From the NCBI GenBank assembly GCA_002780005.1, contig PEWV01000018.1, positions 842-50,437 on the forward strand: a stretch of DNA of 49,596 nt. The letters are read 5' to 3'. The position numbers and the translations under genes are program-made. This DNA is from Candidatus Aquitaenariimonas noxiae (lineage in GTDB: Bacteria; Omnitrophota; Gorgyraeia; Aquitaenariimonadales; Aquitaenariimonadaceae). This document shows positions 17,522 to 49,596 of this stretch, in pieces (position 1 is the first letter of the stretch; each line of letters opens with the position of its first letter). Under the pieces are notes generated by a model. That model was not told the DNA's origin. It worked only from the letters and a program-made list of their open reading frames with translations, and did not search any database.

Positions 17522-17628
17522 TTGTAACTGCTCTTAATTTGGCAGCCCTGCCGCCGTATCCTGTCTTATTTGAGGACTTAGGCCGTAGGCTTTGCGCCCC
17601 ACCCTTTCGGATGGTTTACCTTTTACAA
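17522..17628 (-). promoter_or_regulatory. c-di-GMP-I (GEMM) riboswitch aptamer
   Basis: The minus strand shows class-defining parts in order. P1 is TTGTAA (17623-17628) paired with TTACAA (17522-17527). Next come AAAGGTAAACC, a P2 hairpin CCATCC-GAAA-GGGTGG with a GNRA loop, and the conserved CGCAAAGCC block. A tetraloop receptor-like CCTAAG...TACGG follows, then a P3-side GGCAGGGCTGCC. This order matches the GEMM-I consensus, whose ligand is cyclic di-GMP. The 8-mer ACCATCCG (17608-17615) is the exact reverse complement of CGGATGGT in the terminator (17500-17507), giving a plausible antiterminator. The predicted logic is ligand bound, terminator formed, gspC and downstream genes off. The aptamer call is strong; the switching direction is inference. 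Confidence 0.92.
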
Positions 17629-17667
17629 ATTTAAGTATTTAAAAGAACCTTTTTATCTCTATTATAA

Positions 17668-47625: not shown

Positions 47626-49080
47626 TTATTCCGTATTTTGTTTTTCAGGTCTTAATTGAGGGAAAAATATTACCTCGCGTATAGAAGCCGAATTAGTAAG
47701 CAGCATAACAAGCCTGTCTACTCCTAATCCCAGGCCTCCGGCAGGCGGCATGCCATATTCAAGGGCCTGAACAAAGTCCTCGTCAAATTCGCGCTTTCCT
47801 GCCGCTGATGCCTTCTTTTCGACCTCAAAACGCTTGCGTTGTTCGATAGGGTCGTTGAGTTCTGAATACGCGTTCGCGATTTCCATACCTCCGACAAAGA
47901 GTTCGAACCTCTCTGAGATCAGAGGATTATCCTTGTTCGCCTTTGCCAATGGGCATAATTCGGTGAACATATCCGTAATAAAAACAGGATTTGATTCGGC
48001 TTTCGGTTCTATCAATTCAGCTATTATATTCAAAAGCTGGGTCCTGGAAAGTTCGCCGCTTTCTATCTTAATGTCTTTATCCTTTAGCTTCTTTAACCAG
48101 ACCTTTTCGCTATCAGTAGGTAATATTCCAAAAGTATCTTTCATTAATTCCGCAAAAGAAATTCGTTCCCACTTTTTGAAATCTATGACTTTCCCCTGAT
48201 ATTCTATTTCCTCTTTGCCCAACACCTCCTTGGCAACGAATCTTATCAGATCTTCCGTTAATTTCATAACGTCTTCATAATTCGCATACGCGGTGTAAGA
48301 TTCCATCATGGTAAATTCGGGATTATGCCGAGTGGAGATGCCTTCATTTCTAAAGCTTCTATTTATCTCGTATATTTTCTCAAAGCCGCCCACAAGGAGC
48401 CTTTTTAAATAAAGTTCGGGCGCTATCCTTAAGTATAGATCCACGCCAAGGGCCTCGTGATGGGTCTTAAAAGGTTTACCTGCCGCCCCTCCGGGGATCG
48501 GATGCATTATCGGCGTCTCAACCTCAAGATATCCGCGGCTGTCAAAAAATTCTCTGATTTTCGTTATTGTTTTTATTCTTGCGCAAAATATTTTTTTAAC
48601 ATCTTCATTGGCTATTAGATCCAGATAGCGCTTTCTATATCTAATCTCCACATCCTTCAAGCCGTGCCATTTTTCCGGCATGGGCCTTAGGGCCTTCGAA
48701 AGAAGATGATACTCCGTAACTTTGATCGTAAGCTCACCGGTCCTTGTCTTAAATAATTCACCGTCAGCACCTATGATGTCCCCGATATCGATGAAGTCTT
48801 TAAAAAACTTGAACTTTTCAGCTCCCAGCACATCCTGATTCAGGTAAATCTGTATTTTTCCATCTTCTCCCTTTATATCGCAGAAAATACTTTTACCGTG
48901 AGCCCTAAAAGCTGTAAGCCTGCCGCATACCCTAACCTTTTTACCTTCCTGGTAAGATGCGGCTAACTCTTTTGCAGATAAAAAGTCAGAAAATTTGGTA
49001 GGATAAGGCGTTACGCCGGCTTGCCTTATTTTATCAAGCTTGTCCGATCTTTGTTTTATAAATTCTTTTATCTCATCCAT
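47626..49080 (-). CDS. lysS: Lysyl-tRNA synthetase (class II)
   Basis: 484 residues. An OB-fold anticodon domain (about 50 to 150) and class II motifs are present, e.g. EINRSFRNEGISTRHNPEFTM (motif 2) and GLGLGVDRLVMLLTNS (motif 3). It starts after GGGAGTGAG and has a near-perfect promoter. In Bacillus lysS also lies ahead of the mcsA-mcsB-clpC block, so the neighbourhood is partly conserved. Confidence 0.97.
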   Translation of the reverse strand: MDEIKEFIKQRSDKLDKIRQAGVTPYPTKFSDFLSAKELAASYQEGKKVRVCGRLTAFRAHGKSIFCDIKGEDGKIQIYLNQDVLGAEKFKFFKDFIDIGDIIGADGELFKTRTGELTIKVTEYHLLSKALRPMPEKWHGLKDVEIRYRKRYLDLIANEDVKKIFCARIKTITKIREFFDSRGYLEVETPIMHPIPGGAAGKPFKTHHEALGVDLYLRIAPELYLKRLLVGGFEKIYEINRSFRNEGISTRHNPEFTMMESYTAYANYEDVMKLTEDLIRFVAKEVLGKEEIEYQGKVIDFKKWERISFAELMKDTFGILPTDSEKVWLKKLKDKDIKIESGELSRTQLLNIIAELIEPKAESNPVFITDMFTELCPLAKANKDNPLISERFELFVGGMEIANAYSELNDPIEQRKRFEVEKKASAAGKREFDEDFVQALEYGMPPAGGLGLGVDRLVMLLTNSASIREVIFFPQLRPEKQNTE

Positions 49081-49109
49081 GTGTACTCACTCCCTATAGT
49101 TAGCTTATT

Positions 49110-49138
49110 ATTATAATATATAACAATAAGTGTGTCAA
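49110..49138 (-). promoter_or_regulatory. Consensus sigma-70 promoter for lysS and the downstream operon
   Basis: TTGACA (49133-49138) and TATAAT (49110-49115) are exact consensus hexamers with an ideal 17-base spacer. The predicted start is about 25 bases before the lysS ATG. It probably serves the run lysS-lolC-lolD-ilvE-mcsA-mcsB-clpC and beyond. Confidence 0.92.
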
Positions 49139-49170
49139 CTTTATAAAAGGGCCTTAACTCCTCACTCTGC

Positions 49171-49460
49171 AGCTTTACCGGCAGGTGCCATTTATGGTAG
49201 CAATAGGAGCTCGCGATTTCCTATTCTGTTTTTGCCTACCCTTCGTGTCGTCAAAATTTCTTGACGCTTTTTACTCGTCAGAAATCGGGGGCTGGGATAA
49301 CTCACCCCACACCTATAGGTGTGGGGTTCGAACAATCCCAACCCTTTTATAAACCGATTTTTTCCTCGCAAAAAGCTAAAATTTTGAAACTTCACTTAGG
49401 GCAGGCAAAAACAGGATATGCACAATTAGCCTCAAGAGCACCTGCCGGTAGCTGCTCCAA
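49171..49460. repeat. Large imperfect palindrome (foldback element), about 290 nt
   Basis: The centre is a perfect 24-base palindrome (49304-49327). The outer ends carry ACCGGCAGGTGC and GCACCTGCCGGT. Between them the arms match in blocks: CTGTTTTTGCC, TCAAAATTT, GCTTTTT, AATCGG and GGGAT each recur as reverse complement. Arms are similar but not identical, suggesting an old foldback or MITE-like unit. The 0.46-kb gap before lysS holds no credible gene. Confidence 0.8.
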
Positions 49461-49521
49461 GTTAAAATAGCTGGAATGCCTCACTGCATATGGTAGCGAC
49501 AGGGATGAGTAGTGAAATTGT

Positions 49522-49596
49522 CCCGCCTACGCCCCACTTTTTGCTCTCTATGTGCGGGATCCCGCACATGTATGCTTAAAGTCAGGTTTAGGCGGG
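49522..49596. repeat. Second foldback element at the right edge
   Basis: A perfect 20-base palindrome, ATGTGCGGGATCCCGCACAT (49550-49569), lies at the centre. The ends pair as CCCGCCTA with TAGGCGGG, and the arms match at most positions between. It may continue beyond the window. It follows the larger foldback by about 60 bp. Confidence 0.75.

Follow-up and report, generated by a model that had tools for sequence, protein, structure and literature searches.

What is the long, almost palindromic sequence that precedes lysS at the very end of a contig of an Omnitrophota bacterium, and should we understand it as a mobile element, as a structured RNA or as a combination of several things? An initial annotation of this DNA (a stretch of 49,596 nucleotides, called here the window), made from the sequence alone, had described a near-palindrome with a perfect centre, matching outer blocks and directly repeated units, and had proposed that it was either an undescribed non-autonomous element or a structured RNA. 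The gene that it precedes, lysS, lies on the minus strand with its start codon at 49080 (Pfam tRNA-synt_2, 3e-91). The perfect 24-nt palindrome was indeed found there, together with the two pairs of outer blocks, one of 26 nt (Table 1) and one of 24 nt (49176-49199 with 49427-49450, 79%), and so was the direct repeat TATGGTAGCRAYAGG, at 49193 and 49489 with a spacing of 296 nt. The end of the structure, which had been placed at 49480, had to be corrected, as the structure continues through more palindromic modules to the end of the window, which is also the end of contig C73 (C73:50437) and falls inside a palindromic feature. In a search of the window for inverted repeats (exact seed of 12 nt, arms no shorter than 26 nt, distance up to 600), this palindrome was, under these settings, the only one of the 49.6 kb. 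Folding of 49130-49596 gave z values of -9.1 for the plus strand and -10.4 for the minus strand, none of 100 shuffles per strand being equally stable.

A mosaic of palindromic modules

The genome that carries the locus (G000; 1.93 Mb in 81 contigs, 97% complete) was searched with positions 49081-49596 of the window, which returned 100 match rows at E<=10, 23 of them, besides the query itself, at E<1e-17. Comparison of copies in 39 stretches fetched from this genome allowed us to split the locus into modules, for which we coined the names alpha to zeta. The locus is a mosaic of such separable palindromic modules: gamma outer arms, alpha terminal inverted repeat fragments, beta, and a delta core (Table 1).

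Table 1. Modules and features of the palindromic locus upstream of lysS (window positions; a dot stands for no strand).
Feature	Position	Strand	Remarks
Gamma left arm (CTCCTCACTCTGCAGC..ACCGGCAGGTG)	49155..49192	.	Inverted repeat; pairs with gamma right arm
Alpha terminal inverted repeat fragment (ATGGTAGCAATAGG..)	49191..49215	+	
Delta outer stem, 5' arm	49222..49251	+	49222-49247 is 85% complementary to 49393-49418
Delta core	49252..49386	+	Covarying hairpin, the module common to the class
Internal loop, 5' side, AACTC	49299..49303	+	Conserved
Delta apical hairpin	49304..49327	.	Perfect 24-nt palindrome
Internal loop, 3' side, TCGAACA (TCRRACA)	49328..49334	+	Conserved
Bulge TTTTATAAA	49345..49353	+	Conserved; in other copies the small hairpin zeta occupies this point
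Delta outer stem, 3' arm	49387..49418	+	Inverted repeat with 5' arm
Gamma right arm	49427..49488	.	
Alpha element, 5' part	49489..49521	+	
Beta palindrome TCCCGCCTA..GGGATCCC..TAGGCGGG	49522..49596	.	Inside alpha; truncated by the contig end

Each of these modules has a life outside the window. Alpha is a palindrome of about 165 bp with ends ATGGTAGCRAYAGGGG, which stands alone at L028:3565-3729; its end pattern, ATGGTAGCRAYAGGGGY, occurs at 40 sites of the genome with at most two mismatches, against one for the control, and the alpha fragment that adjoins delta recurs elsewhere (for example in L017, L023, L029 and L034). Beta, a palindrome of about 75 bp (TCCCGCCTA..TAGGCGGGA), lies close to a tRNA gene in L020 of the same genome and beside a tRNA in another one (G035, L049). 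It is nested within alpha in the window and in L009, L010 and L011, and within a delta arm in L016, L011 and L020. The gamma left arm has matches in five other fetched stretches, and the gamma arms, which surround delta in the window, have a different core, epsilon, between them in L024, L026 and L028. Zeta, a hairpin of about 20 bp, sits in the bulge of delta in L013, L017, L021 and L022. Eleven of the 39 stretches hold the junction between the right arm of gamma and alpha, at 12 sites in all when that of the window is counted, so that the composites themselves recur; near-identical junctions open contigs C48 and C64, where they run on into the remainder of alpha. In 20 of the 39 stretches no more than about 35 bases separate the repeat from a contig end, and it is therefore probable that these repeats break the assembly.

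The delta family across Omnitrophota

Among these modules delta is the one that reaches farthest. It can be described as a core hairpin of about 135 nt whose internal loop, AACTY/CRRACA, is non-complementary and strand-specific, and which usually carries a CCTTTT step; together with its arms it measures 190-500 nt. An exact-pattern scan of one genome per species over 84,980 species, in which records near the window's own may have been left out, yielded five stretches in three assemblies, all of Omnitrophota/Omnitrophica, and the same pattern had no match in a viral collection. Two covariance models were then used: the first, R1, built from seven sequences, placed delta in 29 of 292 genomes and 25 of 227 genera of the class (E<=0.001), and the second, R2, built from 38, in 44 of 384 genomes and 38 of 283 genera of the phylum, one of them outside the class. 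The core of the window scores 136.1 bits against R2 (E 1e-36), being itself part of that model. A genome may hold up to about ten copies, a number that has to be read as a lower bound because no more than 8 (R2) or 11 (R1) candidates were scored in each genome; the copies are dispersed, intergenic and in both orientations. Alpha, searched for in 197 genomes, gave full matches in its own genome only, with matches to a core of about 30 nt in two others.

The initial annotation had advised looking for the arms in the whole genome and in relatives, and for covariation, single-copy occurrence without covariation being what would speak against it; the locus proved to be neither single-copy nor free of covariation. 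The family is probably undescribed, as far as searches of Rfam and of the open-access literature reach: the accessible parts of that literature on palindromes, repeats and mobile elements of Omnitrophota hold no apparent description of these elements.

Another palindromic repeat, eta, of about 165 bp and with a conserved interior (GCAAGGATTTAYGG..CCRTAAACCGTAGCG), was met at L109:1689-1854. It is very abundant in its genus, with more than 50 matches over G017, G074, G201 and G210. It was considered as a candidate relative of alpha; the two alignments (A5 and A6) have only a vague core in common.

A fold preserved more than its sequence

In Omnitrophota it is the folded shape of delta, more than its sequence, that is preserved. 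In the 66 distinct rows that represent the 67 matches, standard pairs fill 90.6% of the pair cells and both sides have changed in 44 of the 46 pairs, when shuffles reach on average 61.9% and 36.4 pairs, none of 500 being as high as what was observed. The best-aligned 38 copies give 92.2% paired cells, with two-sided changes in 42 of the 46 pairs (again 0 of 500 shuffles); both alignments are fitted to the model, and controls in which they are slid drop to 38-58% paired. The apical helix follows the same rule, with 95.4% of its cells paired in the 38 copies and compensatory changes present.

The arms were considered apart in 37 copies, using only sequence that the model does not cover (the 38th copy was dropped, its flank being missing). 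An arm pairs with its own partner at a mean of -36.2 kcal/mol, with that of another copy of the same genome at -27.7 and with that of another genome at -21.0, and own arms beat 95% of the cross-genome pairs in 24 of the 37 copies. Since own arms pair better than foreign ones, the arms evolve yet remain self-complementary. As for the loop, among 65 copies (two rows were dropped, a same site and the other strand), AACTY is present in 64 and CRRACA in 58, the two occurring together in 58, compared with 4.4% for both in shuffles, it being understood that the models used to find these copies include the loop. The CCTTTT step is present in 56 of the 65.

Signs of mobility

Within one genome the copies of delta have unrelated flanks and sharp ends, as illustrated by AAGCAATGTTGAT..ATCAACATTGCTT in five copies of G050. 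In that genome the 13-mer that ends delta occurs 27 times, against one for the control, in inward pairs that are 187-357 bp apart, and in some of these pairs the enclosed core is not an intact delta (L180, L181, L182). In L181 and L182 the delta-type ends enclose arrays of short palindromic repeats of the ATCGTTAATCGT / GGTTTACGGTTTACG kind.

Presence and absence between congeners was looked at in detail in one case. G210 has a delta and the matching locus of G074 has no match to the model, with coding flanks that are 91-92% identical; the G074 locus is not a clean empty site, because other palindromic DNA sits there. At a second locus delta is retained in G212 as well as in G235. A delta arm is itself interrupted at L128 (about 2245-2345) by an inverted-repeat insert of about 100 bp with ends CCCCGTAC..GTACGGGG and a possible 4-bp duplication, CTCG. 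Target duplications are otherwise inconsistent, with TTAT at the L017 composite and none visible in the G050 copies. A further arrangement deserves mention in its own right: at L149:1746-3188, in G049, two inverted delta copies lie around a lineage-specific ORF of 298 amino acids, and G152 has a single delta where G049 has these two.

Taken together with the dispersed copies and the recurring junctions, the sharp inverted-repeat ends in unrelated flanks and the difference between congeners give good support to the first half of the original proposal, that of an undescribed non-autonomous element. We may go one step further and see in the locus what it probably is, a composite of nested, non-autonomous, palindromic mobile hairpins, of which delta would be moved in trans as folded single-stranded DNA. 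The composite reading is founded on multiple copies, dispersal, nesting, recurring junctions, covariation and turnover at one locus; from these we infer active transposition, a single-stranded DNA intermediate and an enzyme. Palindromic elements would have inserted into one another, or swapped their cores, to give the composite. A trans-acting enzyme would recognise the folded single strand of delta and move it in that state, and other palindromes would gather at those points of the fold that tolerate them, the bulge, the stem junction and the apex. Across genera it is the interior that is kept, namely the geometry of the stem, the AACTY/CRRACA loop with its strand specificity and the CCTTTT step; the outer arms are specific to a copy or to a lineage.

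Candidate enzymes and competing explanations

If delta is mobilised in trans, which enzyme could do it? In G000 no wide inward pair of alpha ends surrounds a transposase, the sole wide pair (C50:9671-11328) enclosing a radical-SAM gene, and in G050 no inward pair of delta ends is at least 1 kb apart; this absence of an autonomous relative is weak evidence, because the assemblies break at repeats. Y1 transposases (IS200/RAYT/TIRYT-like) of the same genomes come to mind, as Y1_Tnp genes have five matches in G000 and are present in all 12 of the other delta-bearing genomes searched, several of them flanked by inverted repeats, an arrangement that recalls the TIRtrons described in PMC3733652. We nevertheless hold it somewhat unlikely that they mobilise delta and its kin. 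Of the 35 Y1 loci considered (30 of the 42 matches in the 12 genomes and all five of G000), none has delta in its fetched flanks at E<=1; the five loci of G000 show no match to any module from alpha to zeta, and the repeats that flank Y1 genes there are of other types (GGGACAGGTC.., GTGCCTGGCAC..). As a separate observation, the Y1 genes of L082, L083 and L084, in the same genome, have their own imperfect inverted repeats (GGGACAGGTC.., AGTGCCTGGCACT..), in a TIRtron-like fashion.

The second half of the original proposal can be phrased as follows: delta would be a functional structured RNA, either a multicopy gene or an element of untranslated regions, whose loop binds a protein or a ligand, dispersal being secondary. 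Strong covariation and a conserved non-complementary loop of fixed polarity speak for it, as does, at first sight, an excess of G-U over A-C cells (99:60) in the model-fitted alignment. That alignment, however, leans to the model; independent folds gave 112 G-U pairs on the delta strand and 140 on the other, and the delta strand is the better folder in only 12 of 59 copies. Placement is also neutral with respect to gene orientation. In 67 rows, which include one duplicated site and one row on the opposite strand, both flanking genes have the orientation of delta in 26 and the opposite one in 18, with eight divergent and five convergent arrangements and ten where one side is missing. There is no constant neighbour either: the 112 closest ORFs (after removal of some redundant sites, and with the 298-aa ORF of L149 among them) match 221 Pfam families, the 25 commonest of which comprise neither a transposase nor a recurrent partner. 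The RNA proposal can point to a strongly covarying structure and strand-specific loops, but placement is indifferent to gene orientation and no clear G-U asymmetry separates the strands; we consider it unlikely as the main explanation. It is worth emphasizing that covariation by itself is no proof of a functional RNA, as mobile hairpins can covary too.

Known RNA families bring nothing to the locus. The gathering search of the window with Rfam found nothing at delta, its sole match being a c-di-GMP-I riboswitch aptamer elsewhere (17538-17630, minus strand, 70.9 bits). A permissive search of the locus gave seven matches, all far below gathering scores and from eukaryotic or unrelated families, the best being mir-92 (22.9 bits for a cut-off of 47, E 0.0024), and on eight delta or beta loci the only match at E<=1 was a tRNA. 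A hammerhead-like CTGACGA on the opposite strand, spotted by eye, is absent from one compared copy of another genome and was put down to chance.

Hairpins might also be kept for the control of expression, mainly as transcription terminators or mRNA-stability elements, here for instance as a leader of lysS. They are intergenic, as such elements would be, and delta precedes lysS in G152 as well (L131; LysS 57% identical) and, weakly, in G003 (L071, 25.5 bits). Yet convergent placement, noted above, is rare (5 of 67 rows), the neighbour genes are diverse, and among the lysS loci of 18 relatives 17 have no delta, that of L071 being the single, weak match, which is why a lysS leader was rejected as the main explanation; we regard this family of explanations as very improbable. 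The genomes that have delta-type hairpins upstream of lysS at L131 and L071 come from two other bacterial families, and the coincidence may be due to chance or to a hotspot.

Finally, an assembly artefact, in which chimeric inverted repeats of a metagenome-assembled genome would mimic palindromes, might be suspected from the clustering of contig ends at repeats, but it is already contradicted, and has a negligible chance of being right, as some contigs hold a complete unit in their interior, with genes to its left and right (L014, L015, L017, L028), and the family turns up again in other, independent assemblies, among them that of G067, a genome in a single contig.

Comparison with known systems

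Bacterial MITEs and MITE-like repeats (ERIC/RU, NEMIS/Correia, RUP, bcr1) are short, non-coding, palindromic and dispersed. The elements described here resemble them in all these respects, being multicopy as well, and also in being intergenic, in having inverted-repeat ends and in their capacity to form RNA hairpins. Their terminal inverted repeats are constant within a genome (27 against 1 in G050, 40 against 1 for alpha), and neither the G000 nor the G050 assembly yielded an autonomous relative that combines such ends with a transposase. They differ from MITEs in that they nest and swap cores, with no cognate transposase in those two assemblies, and in that delta keeps its interior, not its ends, across genera, with a strand-specific loop. 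That the structure covaries over dozens of genera and the ends do not is the reverse of the usual logic of MITEs; a simple MITE would not usually keep its interior in this way, which may point to a function for the host or as RNA.

In integron attC sites, too, structure is conserved above sequence, and it is the folded single strand that is recognised. These sites carry R''/R' boxes, RYYYAAC and GTTRRRY, at the base of the hairpin. Delta shares with them a structure conserved more than its sequence and differs in its ends, where these boxes are present in none of 38 copies.

PMC3733652 names several MITE-like repeat families and gives 20-40 bp for REPs. With REP, BIME and REPIN sequences and their RAYTs our elements have in common extragenic palindromes with unpaired features, mosaic arrays and the presence of Y1 transposases in the genome, and the ends of alpha contain GTAG. 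A REP, however, is a palindrome of 20-40 bp with a GTAG (or CGTC) tag, whereas the delta core has about 135 nt, only 2 of 38 copies have GTAG/CTAC in their flanks (6.3% in shuffles), and no delta stands beside a Y1 (RAYT) gene at the 35 loci. Delta thus behaves like MITE or REP-type repeats but fails the tested features that define REPs. The same source describes TIR repeats and TIRtrons (TIRYT), families of dispersed TIRs alongside Y1 genes, some TIRs being self-complementary; the repeats that flank Y1 genes in G000 differ in being unrelated to alpha-zeta.

Omnitrophota, nearly all uncultured, are known from fragmented metagenome assemblies, and here a group of repeats without an Rfam entry coincides with many contig ends of its genome. 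Delta offers a concrete substrate for seeking a new single-strand recombinase or an RNA partner. We tentatively raise the possibility that delta, alpha and eta make up a guild of mobile elements in much of Omnitrophota, whose identity would reside in the folded strand, with the AACTY/CRRACA loop of fixed polarity read by a putative enzyme, arms free to evolve as long as they remain self-complementary, and fold points where other hairpins can insert. If this were true, it would amount to a mobility system, possibly with a phase at the RNA level, that stands apart both from MITEs, recognised by their ends, and from the short repeats of the REP/RAYT type.
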